Shown: in pieces, positions 3,110 through 14,842 of the stretch | How positions within the stretch are numbered: position 1 is the first letter of the stretch | Layout of the letters: every line of letters begins with the position of its first letter | Source of the DNA: Microbacterium sp. BLY | GTDB taxonomy: Bacteria; Actinomycetota; Actinomycetes; Actinomycetales; Microbacteriaceae | Length of the DNA stretch: 64,000 nt | Direction: 5' to 3' | Assembly (NCBI RefSeq): GCF_017939615.1 | Contig: NZ_JAGKSR010000001.1 | Span: forward strand, 496,001-560,000 | Notes under the pieces: model-generated | Told to the model about the DNA's origin: nothing | Databases searched by the model: none | Seen by the model: only the letters and a program-made list of their open reading frames with translations | Position numbers and translations under genes: made by a program

Positions 3110-3529
3110 TCAGGCCGAGGGGTGACCGACCACGCCCTTCCGGAGCAGCGCGTTGCCGTACTTGCGCGTCTCTCCCGTGCGCACCATCAGGTACGCCTCC
3201 TTCGCGACGTCGTAATAGGCGAAGCGCTCGACGAACCGGGTCGTGTCGAGTTCGGTGCCCGCCGCGGCCATGAGCTCGTGCTGCACCTGCAGCACCTCGC
3301 CGTCGGCGGAGGTCATCAGATCGATCCCCGGAGCGTCGTCGAGGGGCAGCACGCTGCGGATGGCGGCGACGACCTCGGGCGTCGTGGTGCCGGGAAGGTC
3401 GACCACGCGGGCACCGAGACCCCAGGCCGGGAAGTGCGCGTCGGCGACGACCACGGCGTCGGAGTGCCCCATCCGGTCGAGATGCAGCAGCAGCTCCCCG
3501 GTGAGCAACGGGTGGATTCCTTCGAGCAC
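3110..3529 (-). CDS. fucU: L-fucose mutarotase-like protein (RbsD/FucU family)
   Basis: A 139-residue RbsD/FucU-fold protein that would interconvert anomers of the free sugar, supplying the form used by the adjacent dehydrogenase. It contains the family pattern RMGHSDAVVVADAHFP near residues 19-34 and a C-terminal ALLRKGVV strand. The residue set after the histidine and the cluster favour FucU over ribose pyranase; a true RbsD paralogue sits at 11226 with a ribokinase. Start is GTG at 3529 with GAGGAG 7 nt upstream. It lies 27 bp after the aldo/keto reductase and appears to be the last gene of that leftward operon, ending at a long hairpin. Confidence 0.85.
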   Translation of the reverse strand: MLEGIHPLLTGELLLHLDRMGHSDAVVVADAHFPAWGLGARVVDLPGTTTPEVVAAIRSVLPLDDAPGIDLMTSADGEVLQVQHELMAAAGTELDTTRFVERFAYYDVAKEAYLMVRTGETRKYGNALLRKGVVGHPSA

Positions 3530-3556: not shown

Positions 3557-4525
3557 TCAGGATGCGGGGATCAGGCCCTCGGCCGCGAGGTTCTCCCACA
3601 GGGCGGAGGGGATCTCCCGGGCCGCGTACTCGGCATTCTGCCGCAGCTGCGCTGGTCGGCTGCCGCCGACGACCACCGAGCGCACGACGTCGGCCTGCAG
3701 CGGGTACTGGATGGCGGCGGCAGGGAGCGGCACGTCGTGGTCGGCGCAGACTGCGGCGATGCGCACGAGTCGGTCCCAGAGCTCGTCCGGAAGCTGCCCG
3801 TACTCGTACCGGCCGTCCCGACGCGGCTCGTTCGCCGCGAGGAGCCCGGAGTTGAACACCGATGCCGCGACGATCCCCGTGCCGGTCTCCCGACAGGCCG
3901 GGAGCACGTCGACGGCGGCGGGCTGCTCCAGCAGCGTGTACCGACCGGCCACCATCACGAGGTCGAGGTCGGCCGAGCGGACAGACGCTGCCAGGGCATC
4001 GGACACCATCGAGCCGATGCCGATCGCGGTCACCTCGCCGTCCGCGCGCAACTGCTCCAGCGCGGGAAGGGCCTCGGCGAGCGCGAGGTCGAGGTCGTGC
4101 CGCTCCGGATCGTGCAGATAGAGGAGGTCGATGCGCTCGATGCCGAGGCGCTCGCGCGACTCCTCCAGGCTCGTGCGGATGCCGTCGGCCGAGAAGTCCC
4201 ACACGCGGCGGAGGTCGTCCGGCACGTGGAAGTCGTTGGCGGTGTCGAGGCCGCCGTCGTGGTCGGGGTTGGGGCGCAGCAGCCGGCCGACCTTGGTCGA
4301 GAGCACGTACTCGTCGCGGGGCTTCGTCTGCAGGAACGCGCCAAGGCGGCGCTCCGACAGCCCGAGGCCGTAGTGCGGTGCCGTGTCGTAGAACCGGATG
4401 CCGCTCTCCCATGCCGCATCGAGCACGGCCCACGCGTCGTCGTCGGAGAGGGGACGGAACAGGTTGCCGACGTTCGCGGCCCCGTAGCCGAGCCGCGGGA
4501 CGGTCAGGCGCTCAGATGCCGACAT
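3557..4525 (-). CDS. Aldo/keto reductase, probable L-fucose (6-deoxy-hexose) dehydrogenase
   Basis: A 322-residue NAD(P)-dependent aldo/keto reductase. The catalytic tetrad is visible: Asp and Tyr in [10 protein letters not shown], Lys in STKVGR, and His in LLYLHDPE. The C-terminal [11 protein letters not shown] strand is the cofactor 2'-phosphate/ribose loop region. In this cluster the expected reaction is oxidation of the free aldose to a 1,5-lactone, the first step of the non-phosphorylated fucose route. Start chosen at ATG 4525; an upstream GTG at 4531 is possible. It overlaps the end of the dehydratase gene by 14 nt, indicating translational coupling. Sugar specificity is inferred from neighbours. 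Confidence 0.85.
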
Positions 4526-5807
4526 GCGCACCGGTCCAGGTGTATTCCGCGATGCTGTCGGCCTTCATCTCCATGCCCGTGCCCGGTGCGGTCGGCGCCG
4601 TGTAGGAGCCGCCCTGGATGTCGGTCGGCACGACGAAGTGCTCGTGCAGGTGGTCGACGAACTCGATGAGGCGGCCTTCGCGGGTGCCGGAGACGGCGAC
4701 GAAGTCGAACATCGACAGGTGCTGCACGGCTTCGCAGAGGCCGACGCCGCCGGCGTGCGGACACACCGGCACGCCGAATTTCGCGGCGAGCAGCAGGTTG
4801 GCGATGTTCTCGTTGACTCCGGCGACGCGGACGGCGTCGATCTGCATGACCGAGATCGCGTCGGCCTGCAGGAGCTGCTTGAAGATCATCCGGTTCTGCG
4901 CGTGCTCACCGGTGGCGACCCGGATCGGGGCGACGCCGCGGGCGATCTCGGCGTGGCCGAGGATGTCGTCCGGGCTGGTCGGCTCCTCGATCCAGGCCGG
5001 GTGGAACTCGGCGAGCGCGTTCACCCACTCGATCGCCTCCGACACCTCCCAGCGCTGGTTCGCGTCGATGGCGATCGGGAAGTCGGGACCGCACACCTCC
5101 CGCGCCTTCCGGAAGCGGCGGATGTCGTCCTGCAGGTCGGCGCCCACCTTGAGCTTGATCTGCGTGAACCCGTCGGCCATGGCCTCGCGGGCGAGGCGTT
5201 CGAGCTTCTCGTCGGAGTAGCCGAGCCAACCGGGGCTGGTCGTGTAGCCGGGGTAACCGGTGGCGAGGAGCTGCTGCTCGCGCTCGGCGCGACCGGGCTC
5301 CGCCGCCCGCAGGATCTCCAGCGCCTCCTCGCGGGTGAGCGCGTTGGTGAGGTAGCGGAAGTCGACGAGGTCGACGAGCTGCTCCGGGGTCATCCGGGCA
5401 AGGAGCTGCCAGAGCGGCAGGCCCGCGCGCTTGGCCTTGATGTCCCACAGCGCGTTGACGACCGCGCCGATGGCCATGTGCATGACGCCCTTCTCGGGGC
5501 CGAGCCAGCGCAGCTGGGAATCGCCGATGATCTCGCGGAACGTGCCGCCCATGTCGTCGAGCAGGGGTTCGATCTCGCGCCCGACGAGGTGCCCGGCGAG
5601 CGCGTCGATGGCGGCGACCTGCACGTCATTGCCGCGGCCGATCGTGAAGACGAAGGCGTGCCCCTCGATGTCGTCGCCGGCGTCCGTGCGGACGATGACG
5701 TACGCGGCGGAGTAGTCGGGGTCCGGGTTCATGGCGTCGGAGCCGTCGAGGCTCAGCGACGTGGGGAAGCGGATGTCGGTGGTGTCGAGGGCGACGATAC
5801 GGCTCAC
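4512..5807 (-). CDS. L-fuconate dehydratase-like enolase-superfamily enzyme
   Basis: A 431-residue enolase-superfamily acid-sugar dehydratase; fuconate dehydratases are about 430-440 residues. Visible are the KxK base motif in QIKLKVG, metal ligands in [14 protein letters not shown] and ATGEHAQNR, and the general acid/base His in [12 protein letters not shown]. It would convert L-fuconate to 2-keto-3-deoxy-L-fuconate. Translation starts at GTG 5807, preceded by GGAGAGG; a longer upstream frame lacks support. It heads the leftward operon with the aldo/keto reductase and mutarotase. Its promoter (TTGACA at 5879-5884, TACACT at 5855-5860, minus strand) overlaps the rightward FAH promoter around one shared operator. 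Confidence 0.9.
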
Positions 5808-5850: not shown

Positions 5851-5884
5851 TTGGAGTGTAAACATCCGATGTCTATACTGTCAA
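5851..5884. promoter_or_regulatory. Overlapping divergent promoters sharing one operator
   Basis: Rightward: TTGGAG (5851-5856), 17-bp spacer, TATACT (5874-5879). Leftward: TTGACA (5879-5884 on the minus strand), 18-bp spacer, TACACT (5855-5860). The palindrome ACATCCGATGT (5862-5872) lies inside both spacers, so one bound regulator would silence both operons. The same 11-mer is at 8755 beside the FCD/GntR gene, the likely ligand-responsive repressor. Confidence 0.8.
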
Positions 5885-5930
5885 CGAGACCGGCCGCTGA
5901 GCAGCGGCCTCCCGAACGATCAGGAGAATC

Positions 5931-6791
5931 ATGAAGTTCGCGCGGCTCGGCACCCCGGGGGCGGAGATCCCCGTCCTTGTGGAGGGTGACCGCTACCTCG
6001 ACCTCCGCCCGGTGACATCCGATGTCAACGGCGACTTCCTTGCGGGAGACTTCGTCGCCCGCGTCGCCGCCGCCCGCGACGCCGGGGAGCTCCCCGAGCT
6101 GCCGGACGCCGCGACGATGCGCATCGGCGCCCCGATCGCCCGCCCCAGCGCGGTGATCTGCATCGGGATGAACTACGCCGCGCACGCCGCGGAGTCGGGC
6201 TCCGAGCCGCCGACCATCCCCATCATCTTCCTCAAGACGCCCAACACGGTCGTCGGCCCGAACGACGCCGTGACGATCCCGCGCGGGAGCGAGAAGACGG
6301 ACTGGGAGGTCGAGCTCGGCATCGTGATCGGCACTCGCACCGCCTACCTCGACTCCCCGGAGGAGTCGATGGCGCACGTGGCCGGCTTCGTCGCCGCGAA
6401 CGACGTGTCCGAGCGCGACTTCCAGATGGCGGTCTCCGGCGGGCAGTGGTCGAAGGGCAAGATCGCCTTCGGCTTCAACCCCACGGGTCCCTGGCTGGTC
6501 ACGCCGGACGAGGTCGACCATCAGGCGCTCGGCCTCCGCAGCTTCGTGAACGGCGAGCCGCGGCAGGACTCGAACACGAGCGACATGATCTTCACGGTCG
6601 AGCAGATCGTGCACCACCTGTCGCAGTACGTGACGCTCGAGCCCGGTGACCTGATCCTCACCGGCACCCCGCAGGGCGTGGCCCTGTCCGGCAAGTACCC
6701 CTACCTGGCCGCGGGCGACGTGGTCGAGATCGAGATCGACGGCCTCGGCCGGCAGCGCCAGGACTTCATCGCATGGGAGGCAGAGAAGTGA
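5931..6791 (+). CDS. FAH-family hydrolase, probable 2,4-diketo-3-deoxy-L-fuconate hydrolase
   Basis: A 286-residue fumarylacetoacetate-hydrolase-family enzyme. The core motif [14 protein letters not shown] is followed by [14 protein letters not shown], the metal-binding segment [11 protein letters not shown], the conserved [12 protein letters not shown] and [13 protein letters not shown]. Where many relatives read GKSFDTF the protein reads [13 protein letters not shown], a local difference near the substrate loop. In the pathway it would cleave the diketo acid to pyruvate and L-lactate. ATG 5931 follows CAGGAGA. The gene is first of a rightward two-gene operon with the SDR, and carries an exact operator copy inside codons 29-32. 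Confidence 0.85.
6015..6025. promoter_or_regulatory. Intragenic exact copy of the ACATCCGATGT operator
   Basis: The exact 11-mer of the divergent promoter recurs here, flanked to give the 13-bp palindrome GACATCCGATGTC. It is 153 bp downstream of the promoter copy, inside the FAH gene. An auxiliary looping site or transcription roadblock is plausible. Confidence 0.55.
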
Positions 6792-7558
6792 CGCTTCGAC
6801 AGGCTCAGGGACCGGGCACGGAAGGCCTCGTGGCCATCGTCACCGGTGGCGCGTCCGGCATCGGCGCGGCGATCGCCGACCGTCTGCACGCGGACGGCGT
6901 CATCGTCGCGGTCCTCGACCGCGACACGACCCACGCCGACGAGCGCTTCGCCGCGTTCACCGCCGACGTCTCCGACCGTGCGAGCGTGGACGCCGCCGTC
7001 GCCGCCGTCGCCGAGCGGTTCGGCCGCATCGACATCATCGTCAACAACGCCGGCATCGGAGCGCAGGGCGACATCGCCACGAACGACGACGACGAGTGGG
7101 CGCGCGTCCTCTCCATCAACGTCACCGGCATCGCGCGGGTGACGTCGGCGGCGCTGCCCTGGCTGCGGAAGTCCCCGGCCGCCGCGGTGTGCAACACCGC
7201 GTCGATCGCCTCCACGACCGGAATCCCGCAGCGAGCGCTGTACTCCGCGTCGAAGGGCGCCGTGTCGGCCCTGACCCGCGCGATGGCGGCCGACCACCTG
7301 CGCGAGGGCATCCGCGTCAATGCGGTCAACCCCGGCACGGCGGACACCCCCTGGGTCGGACGCCTGCTCGACTCCGCTGCCGATCCCGCCGCCGAGCGGG
7401 CTGCACTGGAGGCTCGCCAGCCGCACGGCCGCCTGGTGAGCCCCGACGAGGTCGCCGCCGCCGTCGCCTACCTCGTGAGTCCCGCCGCGGGCTCCACCAC
7501 CGGCACCTTCATCGAGGTCGACGGGGGGATGGCGCAGCTCCGCCTCCGCCCCGAGTGA
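6788..7558 (+). CDS. SDR oxidoreductase, probable 2-keto-3-deoxy-L-fuconate dehydrogenase
   Basis: A classical short-chain dehydrogenase of about 256 residues. It has the NAD-binding TGGASGIG motif, NNAG, catalytic Ser in CNTASIAS, and YSASK (Tyr/Lys), with [12 protein letters not shown] after it. It would oxidise 2-keto-3-deoxy-L-fuconate at C4, just before the FAH hydrolase step. GTG 6788 overlaps the previous stop by 4 nt (GTGA) and is preferred; ATG 6773 would overlap by 19 nt. The first codons are made of the dispersed repeat CTTCGACAGGCTCAGGGACC (6794-6813), giving a non-conserved leader TLRQAQGPG before the Rossmann strand. A hairpin terminator follows the stop. Confidence 0.85.
6794..6813 (+). 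repeat. Dispersed repeat unit inside the SDR gene start
   Basis: CTTCGACAGGCTCAGGGACC. The same unit is clustered at 29221-29329, 41744-41794 and 59826-59883. Here it forms codons 3-9 of the SDR gene, counted from GTG 6788. Confidence 0.8.
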
Positions 7559-7836: not shown

Positions 7837-8736
7837 CTAGAGGGAGTAGACGGAGGTGGCGGTGCCGTGGAAGAGGGCGTCGCGGTCGATGCCGCGGGAG
7901 GAGGCCCAGGTCGCCACGGCGTCGGCCCAGCGGCTGCGCGCGGTCGGCTGATAGGTGGGCGCGCCGTCGGCGGGAGCGTGCGGGTCGCCCGGCTCCGCGG
8001 GACCGATCACCGACACGGGCCAGTCGCTCCCCCACATCAGGCGCTCGGGACCGAAGACGTCGGCCGCGGTGTCGAGGAACGGTTCGAGCTGCGCGAGACT
8101 CCAGTCCCCTCCGGCCTCCGCCGGCAGACCCGACACCTTGCAGAACACCTGAGGATGCCGCGCCAGCTCGGCCAGATCCCGCTCCCACTCCACAGAGGGC
8201 GTGCGCGGAGCGGAAGCCGTCCCGACCTCGGGCTTGCCCAGGTGGTCGAGCACGATCCGCAGCTCCGGGATCGCGCCGGACAGTCGCGCGACGTCGGGGA
8301 GCTGCGCGGCGCGCACGCACGCGTCGAAGGTCCACCCGTGCGCCGCGACCTCACGCGCACCCGAGATGAACGCCGACGAGAGCATCACGCCGTCCGGCTC
8401 CCCCTGCAGCAGATGACGCACCCCGACGACCAGAGGTTCCGCGGTGAGGCTCTCCAAGTGCACCGTGGTGTCGGTGCCGCGGTCCAGGCGGGCGCCGGCG
8501 ACGATGCCGACCACCCCGAGCCGCTCCGCCTGTGCGGCGACCCACCGCACCTCGGCGAGGAAGTCGTCCTCGGCGGTCTCGGCCTGGACGAACACGGCTC
8601 GTTCGGCCGTGGCCGCATCGAGTCGCGCATGCTCCAGCTCGATGTCGCCGAAGCGCCACGCGAGCGGGCCCTCGAGCCACGTGTACGCGAGGACCTCCGG
8701 GTCCCACAGGTGCAGGTGAGAGTCGAGGATGCGCAT
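7837..8736 (-). CDS. Amidohydrolase-family lactonase, probable L-fucono-1,5-lactonase
   Basis: A 299-residue amidohydrolase of the family holding L-fuconolactonase and 2-pyrone-4,6-dicarboxylate hydrolase. Metal-binding HLHLWDP is at the N-terminus (residues 7-13), HLGKPEV in the middle and MWGSDWPVS carries the late catalytic Asp. It would open the lactone made by the aldo/keto reductase to L-fuconate. The start ATG 8736 is preceded by CAGGAT 6 nt upstream, suggesting a leaderless transcript, and the operator ACATCGGATGT (8755-8765) lies directly upstream of that -10. It is divergent from the FCD/GntR regulator. Confidence 0.85.
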   Translation of the reverse strand: MRILDSHLHLWDPEVLAYTWLEGPLAWRFGDIELEHARLDAATAERAVFVQAETAEDDFLAEVRWVAAQAERLGVVGIVAGARLDRGTDTTVHLESLTAEPLVVGVRHLLQGEPDGVMLSSAFISGAREVAAHGWTFDACVRAAQLPDVARLSGAIPELRIVLDHLGKPEVGTASAPRTPSVEWERDLAELARHPQVFCKVSGLPAEAGGDWSLAQLEPFLDTAADVFGPERLMWGSDWPVSVIGPAEPGDPHAPADGAPTYQPTARSRWADAVATWASSRGIDRDALFHGTATSVYSL

Positions 8737-8754
8737 GCCCCCATCCTGCCGCAG

Positions 8755-8765
8755 ACATCGGATGT
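8755..8765. promoter_or_regulatory. Operator ACATCGGATGT between lactonase and GntR genes
   Basis: Exact third copy of the palindrome. It is 6 bp upstream of the lactonase -10-like CAGGAT (minus strand, 8743-8748) and 18 bp upstream of the regulator start, so it would control both, including autoregulation. Confidence 0.75.
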
Positions 8766-8783
8766 TGTGCGAGGATGAGCGCC

Positions 8784-9461
8784 ATGGCTGTGACGGACGA
8801 GGCGATCGAGAAGATCAAGGCGATGATCGTGTCGGGCGAACTGGCCCCCGGCGATCGCCTGCCCCCGGAGAAGGAGCTGTCCGAGCGCCTCGGTCTCTCC
8901 CGCAACTCGATGCGCGAGGCGGTGAAGGCGCTGGAGGTCATCCGCGTGCTCGATGTGCGGCGCGGCGACGGCACCTACGTCACGAGCCTGGAGCCGCACC
9001 TGCTGCTGGAGGCGATCGCGTTCGTGGTGGACATGCACGACGACGACTCGATGCTGGAGATGTTCGCCGTCCGCCGGATGCTCGAGTCGCAGGCCACCGG
9101 GCTCGCGGCCACCCTCGGCACGGACGAGGCGATCGCGGCCCTGCAGGAGGAGGTGGAGGCGGTCGACGCGTCCGTCGGGATCGAGGAGCTCGTCGACCAC
9201 GACATCCGCTTCCACCGCGAGATCGTGGGCATGGCGGGCAACGCCTACCTCGCGAGCCTCATCGAGCACCTGAGCAGCCAGACGGTGCGGGCGCGCGTGT
9301 GGCGGGGCCTCACGGAGGGCGGCGCCGTGGAGCGCACCCTGTCGGAGCACCGGGCCATCGCCGATGCGATCGCGCAGCGCGATTCGGCGCTGGCGACCTC
9401 CCTCGCCACGGCCCATATCGCGGGTGTCGAGCGCTGGCTGCGGCAGGCCGCGTCGGCCTGA
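8784..9461 (+). CDS. FCD-domain GntR (FadR subfamily) regulator of the fucose-type cluster
   Basis: A 225-residue regulator with a winged helix-turn-helix (residues about 1-70: LPPEKELSERLGLSRNSMRE, then RRGDGTYV) and an all-helical FCD ligand domain. FCD metal/ligand residues appear in HDIRFHREIVGMAGN, SEHRAI and TAHIAGVER. Start ATG 8784 is 9 nt after GAGG; ATG 8775 is too close to it. Given the exact palindrome at 8755 and its two other exact copies at 5862 and 6015, this is the best candidate for the protein that binds ACATCSGATGT. Sugar-acid intermediates are common effectors for FCD proteins, so a fuconate-like ligand is my guess. Confidence 0.9.
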   Translation: MAVTDEAIEKIKAMIVSGELAPGDRLPPEKELSERLGLSRNSMREAVKALEVIRVLDVRRGDGTYVTSLEPHLLLEAIAFVVDMHDDDSMLEMFAVRRMLESQATGLAATLGTDEAIAALQEEVEAVDASVGIEELVDHDIRFHREIVGMAGNAYLASLIEHLSSQTVRARVWRGLTEGGAVERTLSEHRAIADAIAQRDSALATSLATAHIAGVERWLRQAASA

Positions 9462-9465
9462 GCCG

Positions 9466-10128
9466 TCAGGCCCCGAGGCGCTGCATCGCGGCGTCGAACT
9501 CGGCTGCCGAGCTGTCGCTCACCTCGTGGAACAGCAGCTCGTCGAGCACGTCGGGCGCGGCGGTGAAGTAAGGCACACCCGCCGCGCGCAGCCCGGTGAT
9601 GTCGTCGGCCGAGCGCAGGGAGGCGGCGAGGACGTTCGAGTCGCTGCCGGCGCACATCTCCTGCATGCGGGCGATGAGCGCGTCGCCGTCCATGCCGGCG
9701 TCCCGCATGCGGCCGAGGTACGGCGCGATGTAATGCGCGCCGATCGAGGCGCACGCCAGCGCCTGCGCGACCGAGTAGACCGCAGTCACGAGCACGGTGG
9801 CTCCGTCCCGGACGAGGGCGGACGCCGCCGCGAAACCGGCCGCCGTCGCGGGCACCTTCACCGCCACCCGGTCGCCGAGCGCGCGGATGCCCTCCGCGTT
9901 CCGGAGGAAGGAGGCGGTGTCGCCGCCCCAGGTCTGGAAGAAGACCTCGCGGGCCCCCTCGTCCACCCAGCGGGCGTAGAGGTCGGGGATCTCCGCGGCC
10001 GTGCGGCCGCCGCGTTCGAGGATCGTCGGGTTGGTCGTGACGCCGTGCACCACCCCGGCGGAGAGCAGCCGCGATACGCGGTCGGTGTCGGCGCTGTCGA
10101 CGTACAGGCGGGGCGCGATCGCGGTCAT
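9466..10128 (-). CDS. Transaldolase-family protein (fructose-6-phosphate aldolase/TalC-like)
   Basis: A 220-residue class I aldolase of the small transaldolase family. LYVDSADTD at the N-terminus, VTTNPTIL, and VKVPAT containing the Schiff-base lysine are diagnostic; VTAVYSVAQAL and IAPYLGRM follow. Small members act as transaldolase or fructose-6-phosphate aldolase; the sequence does not settle which. ATG 10128 follows GAGGAG. It is divergent from a ribokinase-RbsD-GntR operon, and the gap holds two inverted-repeat operators, so it is probably co-regulated with pentose use. It converges with the FCD/GntR gene, ending 4 nt from its stop. Confidence 0.85.
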   Translation of the reverse strand: MTAIAPRLYVDSADTDRVSRLLSAGVVHGVTTNPTILERGGRTAAEIPDLYARWVDEGAREVFFQTWGGDTASFLRNAEGIRALGDRVAVKVPATAAGFAAASALVRDGATVLVTAVYSVAQALACASIGAHYIAPYLGRMRDAGMDGDALIARMQEMCAGSDSNVLAASLRSADDITGLRAAGVPYFTAAPDVLDELLFHEVSDSSAAEFDAAMQRLGA

Positions 10129-11225: not shown

Positions 11226-11630
11226 ATGCGCAAGACCCCGACCACGATCAACCCCGCGCTGTCCCGCGTCATCAGCGAGACCGGTCACACCGACCTGATC
11301 GTCGTGACGGATGCGGGGCTGCCGATCCCACCGGGCTCCGAGCGCATCGATCTCGCCTACCGGCCCGGCGCACCGGCCTTCCTCGACGTGCTCGACACCG
11401 TGCTCGCCGAGCTGGTCGTCGAAGGCGCGACGGTGTCGGCCGAGGTCGCCGAGAAGAGTCCCGAGGTGCTCGACGCCCTGCGTGAGCGCTTCGCGGGGAT
11501 GAGGTTCGAGATCGAGCTCGTCCCGCACGTCGAGTTCAAGAAGCGCACGCATGACGCCCGGGCGTTCGTGCGCTCCGGGGAGTTCACCCCGTACGCCAAC
11601 GTGATCCTGCATGCGGGGGTGGCGTACTGA
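11226..11630 (+). CDS. rbsD: D-ribose pyranase (RbsD family)
   Basis: A 134-residue RbsD-family mutarotase that converts beta-ribopyranose to beta-ribofuranose for the kinase. The catalytic-region motif ETGHTDLIVVTDAGLP is at residues 18-33, and the C-terminal RSGEFTPYANVIL strand is typical. It starts 15 bp after the ribokinase stop, preceded by CAGGAG, and its stop TGA shares one base with the start of the next gene (TGATG). Together with the kinase this supports ribose as substrate, although no ribose ABC importer is adjacent. Confidence 0.88.
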   Translation: MRKTPTTINPALSRVISETGHTDLIVVTDAGLPIPPGSERIDLAYRPGAPAFLDVLDTVLAELVVEGATVSAEVAEKSPEVLDALRERFAGMRFEIELVPHVEFKKRTHDARAFVRSGEFTPYANVILHAGVAY

Positions 11631-14164: not shown

Positions 14165-14842
14165 TCAGAGGCCGGAGTACCGCCGCACCCAGTACTCGGT
14201 GTACGCGACGTGGGCGGACGCGGCGGCCGAGGCCGCGACGGGATCCGCGGCGGCGAGGCCACGCAGGATCGCGCGGTGGCCGGCGTCGGAGTGGATCTTG
14301 AGCTCCGCGGCATCCTCCGGGTCGGAGATCCGGTAGGCGCGGGAGCGGGAACGCAGCACGTCGATCAGGCTGGTCAGGGCGTCGTTGCCCGCGACCGACG
14401 AGATGGCCATGTGGAACTCGTGGTCGAGGCGGGACTGCGCCTCGAAGTCGGTCGTCGACTCGATCTCGGTGAGCACGTCGTCGAGCGCAGCCACCGTGTC
14501 CTCGTCGATGCGCGCCGCGGCGAGCGCCGCCGCATGCGGTTCGAGCACCCGCCGGAGCTCCGTCAACTCCAGCACCCCGGCCATCGGCAGCAGTCCGACC
14601 GTGAGGGAGAGACTGCCGATGAGGTCGGCGGCGCGGAGCTCGCTGACATAGCTGCCGGACCCGTGCCGTGTCTCCAGCACGCCCAGTGCGGCGAGGGTGC
14701 GGATGGCCTCGCGCAGCGACCCTCGGGAGACGCCGAGCCGTTCGCACAGCTCCCCCTCGCTCGGCAGCCGGTCGCCGGGGCGCAGCGCGCCGTCGGCGAT
14801 GAGGGCCCGCAGGCCGTGCAACGCCGTGTCGAGTGCGCTCAT
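14165..14842 (-). CDS. FCD-domain GntR (FadR subfamily) regulator
   Basis: A 225-residue regulator with a winged HTH (LPSEGELCERLGVSRGSLRE, then RHGSGSYV) and an FCD ligand domain with metal-type residues in RLDHEFHMAISSVAGN, AGHRAI and SAHVAYTEYW. ATG 14842 is 6 nt after GGGAGG; the preceding ATG 14848 touches that sequence, and the longer upstream frame begins with Cys-rich nonsense. It is divergent from the aminotransferase/ABC importer operon, and the 166-bp gap contains two candidate FadR-like operators. It most likely represses that operon and itself, lifting when the imported compound or its metabolite binds. Confidence 0.88.
   Translation of the reverse strand: MSALDTALHGLRALIADGALRPGDRLPSEGELCERLGVSRGSLREAIRTLAALGVLETRHGSGSYVSELRAADLIGSLSLTVGLLPMAGVLELTELRRVLEPHAAALAAARIDEDTVAALDDVLTEIESTTDFEAQSRLDHEFHMAISSVAGNDALTSLIDVLRSRSRAYRISDPEDAAELKIHSDAGHRAILRGLAAADPVAASAAASAHVAYTEYWVRRYSGL

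Follow-up and report, generated by a model that had tools for sequence, protein, structure and literature searches.

A GntR-family repressor with an FCD domain probably shuts off two overlapping divergent promoters from a single operator, O1, and reaches by a DNA loop to a second operator, O2, within the first gene of the rightward transcript. This reading is drawn from the genome of Microbacterium sp. BLY, of which we analyzed one stretch of 64,000 nucleotides (the window, to whose first letter all positions refer unless another contig or locus is named), and from the comparison of the same locus among relatives.

The divergent gene cluster and its relatives

The genes around the two promoters belong to families of sugar breakdown, all recognized with Pfam. 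Leftward, on the minus strand, lie an MR_MLE-family dehydratase with a GTG start, likely an L-fuconate dehydratase (4512-5807), an aldo/keto reductase that is possibly an L-fucose dehydrogenase (3557-4531) and an RbsD/FucU mutarotase (3110-3529). Rightward, on the plus strand, the first gene encodes an FAH-family hydrolase (5931-6791) and is followed by a short-chain dehydrogenase (SDR; 6773-7558). Beyond them are an amidohydrolase, likely a lactonase (7837-8736, minus strand), and the candidate repressor, a GntR regulator with an FCD domain (8784-9461, plus strand). A dehydrogenase, a lactonase, a dehydratase, a second dehydrogenase and an FAH hydrolase are thus present together, and these five enzyme families are those of the non-phosphorylating (oxidative) L-fucose route. 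The NCBIfam fucose models matched below their curated cutoffs, and the best model for the FAH hydrolase, also below its cutoff, was that for L-rhamnonate, from the rhamnose route, so that we only infer the sugar. L-Fucose is the most likely substrate of the regulon, favored by the fucose mutarotase and by a fucosidase gene that shares the operator.

Some further features of these genes were seen along the way. A second RbsD/FucU-like frame, found by eye at 11226-11630, lies about 8 kb from the Pfam-checked mutarotase, and a promoter-like pair, TTGACA-18-TACATT (10205-10176, minus strand), is found near the start of a transaldolase-like gene (9466-10128). In one relative (G043), the homologs of the dehydratase (C3:1409028-1410311) and of the regulator (C3:1415660-1416331) each contain one in-frame TGA and are possibly decaying copies.

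The dehydratase was found in 161 of the 366 genomes of the genus at an E value of 1e-200 or better. For the comparisons, we gathered 241 loci (sets of 60, 100, and 80 and the window), which cover only part of these 161 genomes, and dropped 81 of them: 38 that did not have both genes, 20 in which no divergent dehydratase reached 70%, 22 that were identical, and 1 that was truncated. This left 160 loci for the comparison of the locus. O1 was exact in 151 of them, carried one mismatch in 7 and was absent from 2. At the position of O2 (hydrolase +84), the match was exact in 108 loci, while 23 had one mismatch, 1 had two, and 28 had three or more; the latter are the loci that we call without O2, and 26 of them have O1. 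When a single mismatch was allowed in O2, both operators were kept in 131 of the 160 loci.

Two overlapping predicted promoters share one operator

The predicted rightward promoter was read from the sequence and consists of a −35 element TTGGAG (5851-5856, plus strand) and a −10 element TATACT (5874-5879, plus strand), in place in 107 and in all of the 132 O2-bearing loci, respectively. Its leftward counterpart came from a promoter scan and has a −35 element TTGACA (TGTCAA on the plus strand; 5879-5884, minus strand), in place in 132/132 of these loci, and a −10 element TACACT (AGTGTA on the plus strand; 5855-5860, minus strand), in place in 123. The main operator, O1 (ACATCCGATGT, 5862-5872; operators are given without strand), sits inside the spacers of both, which measure 17 bp in the rightward and 18 bp in the leftward promoter when the coordinates are re-read from the sequence. 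An earlier, sequence-only reading had placed this palindrome in the two spacers, which is exact to the base, and had pointed to a compact geometry with one operator within reach of both promoters, which the re-read coordinates support. The layout is AGTGTA a ACATCCGATGT c TATACT; one base separates O1 from either −10 hexamer, the whole being an imperfect palindrome of 25 bp, and both −10 elements share bases with the −35 of the opposite promoter.

In an automatic scan of 12 kb, the leftward promoter was one of 2 matches against 0.4 expected; the rightward promoter fell below the cut of that scan of the 12 kb and has, by our own count, 3 of 6 matches in its −35 and 8 of 12 in total. A bidirectional promoter with a shared −10 was also considered and rejected, since there are two separate −10 elements. 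The promoter-operator block is nearly frozen among relatives. Among the 26 loci with O1 but without O2, many of which come from other genera (Agromyces, Cryobacterium, Planctomonas, and others), TTGACA was in place in 16 and TATACT in 9. These two elements are invariant in the presence of O2 and patchy in its absence, and the symmetric double promoter is therefore mainly a feature of the O2-bearing group.

Operator copies across the genome

The word ACATCSGATGT was found at 5 places in the 3.24-Mb genome, and its reversed control at none. Within the window, a search for the exact word that allowed one mismatch gave 6 strand-matches (3 places) against 0.94 expected, a number reached by none of 100 shuffles of the window. 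Besides O1, these places are O2 (6015-6025), which is identical to O1 and covers codons 29-32 (counted from 1) of the FAH-hydrolase gene, and O3 (8755-8765), found in the genome motif search between the lactonase and regulator genes. The start codons of these two genes are 48 bp apart with O3 between them (8736-8784), and the −10-like elements CAGGAT and GAGGAT end 6-7 bp ahead of them, a layout that suggests leaderless transcripts for both genes.

The two remaining sites lie 1.78 Mb away, at L005 7940 and 10490. The first immediately precedes an alpha-L-fucosidase gene (PF01120, 9.6e-83); the second is flanked by a ROK gene and a sugar ABC transporter. The regulon is consequently wider than the sequence-only reading foresaw, since it extends to this distant fucosidase/transporter locus. 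The start of the fucosidase gene (L005 7969) is arranged much like the gap between lactonase and regulator. A comparable pair of sites, 2.48-2.63 kb apart and either enclosing or adjoining the ROK ortholog, was seen in at least 13 other genomes of the genus, in a count of sites and ROK orthologs made by eye.

O2 is selected at the DNA level

Two codons of O2 are ones that the same genes seldom use elsewhere. We compared 148 hydrolase genes of at least 68% identity, taking their remaining codons as the reference. The first codon of O2 (codon 29) was ACA in 120 of the 148 genes, against 40 of the 2,118 Thr codons elsewhere, and the third was GAT in 123 of the 148, against 462 of the 2,962 Asp codons elsewhere. 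When the 221 codon columns of 131 genes were ranked by their departure from codon usage, those of ACA and GAT came first and second. A protein-only reason for the intragenic site was rejected accordingly, with these rare codons at the top of the scan. The encoded peptide was TSDV in 130 of the 131 genes with O2; the 28 genes without it encode TADI (8), TPDI (4), TSDI (3), and others. Judged by its codons, the intragenic operator is selected as DNA, and it seems to have arisen at one codon position through both silent and amino acid changes, with the direction of change taken from the outer groups.

O1 and O2 keep helical register

Because O2 is fixed at one codon, its spacing from O1 can vary only with the length of the leader. 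This spacing is 153 bp in the window (about 14 turns). The 131 loci with both operators had spacings of 144 bp (3 loci), 153-156 bp (69), 164-168 bp (45), and 174-178 bp (14), and not one of them fell at 145-152, 157-163, or 169-173 bp, the limits of these gaps being defined after the data were seen. Where O2 was missing (26 loci), O1 stood 146 to 238 bp from the equivalent codon; 14 of these loci were within 144-178 bp, and 10 of them fell in the gaps.

We applied a Rayleigh test in which the period was free between 10 and 11.5 bp and the reference was 2,000 draws of uniform integers over the same range. The loci with O2 gave R of 0.78-0.83 (P = 0.0005, the floor of 2,000 draws) at five thinning levels that reduced them from 110 to 24; with the 24 loci below 84% identity, R was 0.79 and P was at the same floor of 0.0005. 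Without O2, R was 0.26-0.32 and P was 0.37-0.45 with 25 down to 18 loci (for example, R = 0.31 and P = 0.44). The spacing classes changed at least 16 times on a quick tree of the 160 loci, or 11 times when nodes under 95 were collapsed in the most lenient way, within the limits set by many weak nodes, by shared ancestry, and by the origin of most O2-less loci in other lineages. The centers of the classes are uneven (144, 153.5, 166.1, and 176 bp), and the best period shifts with the weighting, from 10.75 bp for distinct values to 12 bp for all loci; in two of the five thinned tests it lay at the upper limit set for the period.

By this comparative evidence, O1 and O2 are in helical register, which argues for one protein assembly bridging the two. 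For lac loops in vivo, published fits give helical repeats of 10.95-11.60 bp per turn (PMC1762422). LacI was also described to form out-of-phase loops of 153 bp in vitro with similar stability (PMC2553838), so phase is not required by every looping protein. The strict register seen here suggests, by way of conjecture, that the bridge is stiffer or that repression has to be tight.

The candidate regulator

The protein encoded at 8784-9461 has an N-terminal GntR winged helix (PF00392, E = 2.5e-18) and a C-terminal FCD domain (PF07729, E = 2.9e-26), and it matches 10 PDB sequences, the best being 7c7e, 6az6, 7xp0, and 2di3. Its domains place it in the FCD (FadR) subfamily; that it owns the site is less sure. 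The usual operator of the FadR subfamily is TKGT-N3-ACMA, to which NanR and BioR are named as exceptions (PMC4494728). ACATCSGATGT, the common core of the five genome sites, has AC before GT and does not fit this consensus, so that the identity of the candidate rests on co-occurrence. The proposal of the sequence-only reading that this FCD protein is the regulator thus holds in so far as it is the best candidate by co-occurrence, but O1 is not of the kind usual in its subfamily.

Among 119 genomes of the genus, the 53 with an FCD ortholog (E cutoff of 1e-80, set by us) had 3.15 sites on average, and 47 of them had two or more; the 66 without it averaged 0.5 sites, and 6 had two or more. Since the dehydratase and the regulator go together here, these counts cannot separate the regulator from the genes that it would control. 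Five of the 6 exceptions (G013, G018, G026, G080, and G087) have their sites far apart or on separate contigs, and the genome of the other (G030) is 77% complete. In the window, a complete site begins 29 bp ahead of the regulator's own start codon. When 71 distinct upstream regions were compared (regulators of at least 60% identity), ACATCSGA lay within 50 bp of the start codon in 63 of them; 19 of the 71 regions had a full site, 12 a site with one mismatch, and 28 a site with two, most often ACATCCGATCA (25). The degraded sites are as for a weaker, self-controlling operator.

To look for an operator that co-varies with its regulator, we also scanned 8 loci of regulator paralogs (40-45%) and dehydratase paralogs (60%). 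CATCSGATG was absent from 6 of them and present in L096 (regulator of 63%) and L102, and the 8 loci had no motif in common. The window encodes another FCD-GntR-like protein at 14177-14842 (minus strand), which shares 37% identity with the candidate, and similar copies are found near the cluster in several relatives.

Proposed mechanism and alternatives

In the absence of inducer, the FCD-GntR protein would occupy O1 in both spacers and would presumably be a steric block to both promoters, so that RNA polymerase would take neither. The same protein assembly would also grip O2, and the intervening DNA would loop out. The loop would raise the occupancy of O1 and keep both transcripts tightly off. 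The genes of the regulator and the lactonase would be under O3, and those of the fucosidase and the sugar ABC transporter under the two remote sites. A sugar acid of the pathway in the FCD domain would free the repressor. What the sequences show are the sites and their conservation, the DNA-level selection on O2, the helical classes of spacing, and the co-occurrence of the regulator; we infer repression, the identity and oligomeric state of the binding protein, the loop, the inducer, and the sugar. The sequence-only reading did not foresee an identical, in-register O2 within the first rightward gene, and a single protein at a single operator is therefore probably only half of the mechanism.

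The two operators could also work independently and without a loop, O1 blocking both initiations and O2 acting as a roadblock to leaky rightward transcripts in the first gene. Such an arrangement would need no partner and would be compatible with the identity of O1 and O2 and with the position of O2 downstream of the rightward start. We nevertheless consider it unlikely, since a roadblock has no need of helical register, yet the 131 loci with O2 keep to it and the 26 without O2 do not. The same lack of phasing without O2, the 11-16 changes of spacing class, and the first and second ranks of ACA and GAT among 221 columns make it scarcely credible that the intragenic copy is a coincidence at the protein level and the spacing classes an inherited accident, even if the loci are related and the gap limits were fixed after the data were seen.

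A role for the operators under another regulator, either a protein outside those compared here or a LacI or ROK protein, would explain the misfit between ACATCSGATGT and TKGT-N3-ACMA, and a ROK gene adjoins one of the remote sites. ROK orthologs (E cutoff of 6e-132, set by us) were nevertheless found in only 26 of the 119 genomes and LacI orthologs in 15, too few for either to cover the site pattern, and both were rejected as owners of the sites; the 29 genomes with an FCD but without a ROK ortholog still averaged 2.24 sites. Moreover, in 63 of 71 relatives the FCD gene is itself preceded by an intact or damaged site, and another owner seems quite improbable to us. The chance that the protein bound at O1 activates one or both promoters from the spacer, in the manner of MerR, is very slim. 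O1 does lie within the spacer, and the 18 bp of the leftward promoter are slightly long; on the other hand, the promoter hexamers are good, both spacer lengths (17 and 18 bp) are close to optimal, and the FCD proteins compared here, Atu1419 and NanR, are repressors.

Consequences of a proposed looped repressor

With the looped FCD-GntR repressor as the preferred reading, we lean towards a broader view, in which selection on this repressor has shaped both the coding sequence of an enzyme and the length of a leader throughout the genus. Leaders would shift by about whole turns, and the loop would clamp a double promoter of two-fold symmetry, silencing both strands. Most of what is known of the helical phasing of looped operators comes from constructs built in E. 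coli. If this view is true, more than 100 genomes would amount to a natural experiment on the phase rule of the lac reporter constructs, in which the phasing signal is evolutionarily repeated and has an internal control, as the loci without O2 show no phasing. It would also be a clear case of regulatory DNA dictating the codons and amino acids of an enzyme, and a regulator of the FCD-GntR type would gain a new candidate for its operator motif. The double promoter is very compact and easy to examine with reporters.

The leader has a feature of its own. A short GC hairpin, GGCCGCTGAGCAGCGGCC, is found at 5892-5909, just inside the predicted rightward transcript. Of 130 leaders, 44 had stems of at least 7 pairs, where single-base shuffles gave about 16, and the hairpin of some relatives has different letters on both arms. 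It is possible that this hairpin is a 5′ stabilizer of the mRNA.

Comparison with known systems

Among the titles and abstract openings listed for related work, we recognized no report of this regulon, of its operator, or of helical register in natural variation, and among the listed papers that contain the operator words, no title pointed to a bacterial regulator. The lac and gal systems combine a promoter operator with an auxiliary operator inside the first gene. Repression of lac depends on helical phase (PMC1762422). These systems differ from the present one in their regulators, of the LacI/GalR families, and in that phase was shown with constructs and not, as here, by natural variation among species.

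The double promoter itself is like the bidirectional promoters of E. coli, where pseudo-symmetric DNA serves both strands and polymerases exclude one another (PMC12825309). In the latter, transcription starts around or within one shared −10 (PMC12825309), whereas the present locus has two −10 elements with 13 bp between them, and both overlap the −35 of the opposite promoter. Overlapping divergent promoters under one operator are also found in the RcoLS20 system of pLS20, whose second operator is bridged by a tetramer through a loop (PMC4207663). That system has a spacing of 75 bp with a static bend and another motif and regulator (PMC4207663); its second operator is outside the coding sequence of a metabolic gene, and one of its promoters drives the regulator itself.

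The closest likeness in the regulator is to Atu1419 of Agrobacterium fabrum, an FCD/GntR tetramer that represses by looping two palindromes (PMC7797058). A loop between sites 190 bp apart was seen there by electron microscopy, and a degenerate palindrome, separated from its partner by 109 bp, lies within an open reading frame (PMC7797058). Both cases have an FCD-domain GntR protein, a candidate in ours, and identical short palindromes at promoter elements. They differ in the palindrome, which is ATGTATACAT for Atu1419, in the pathway, and in the intragenic site, which is degenerate in Atu1419 (PMC7797058). The part of that account considered here speaks neither of conservation nor of helical register, whereas O2 in the present locus has the same sequence as O1, keeps to one codon position, and is phased with O1.
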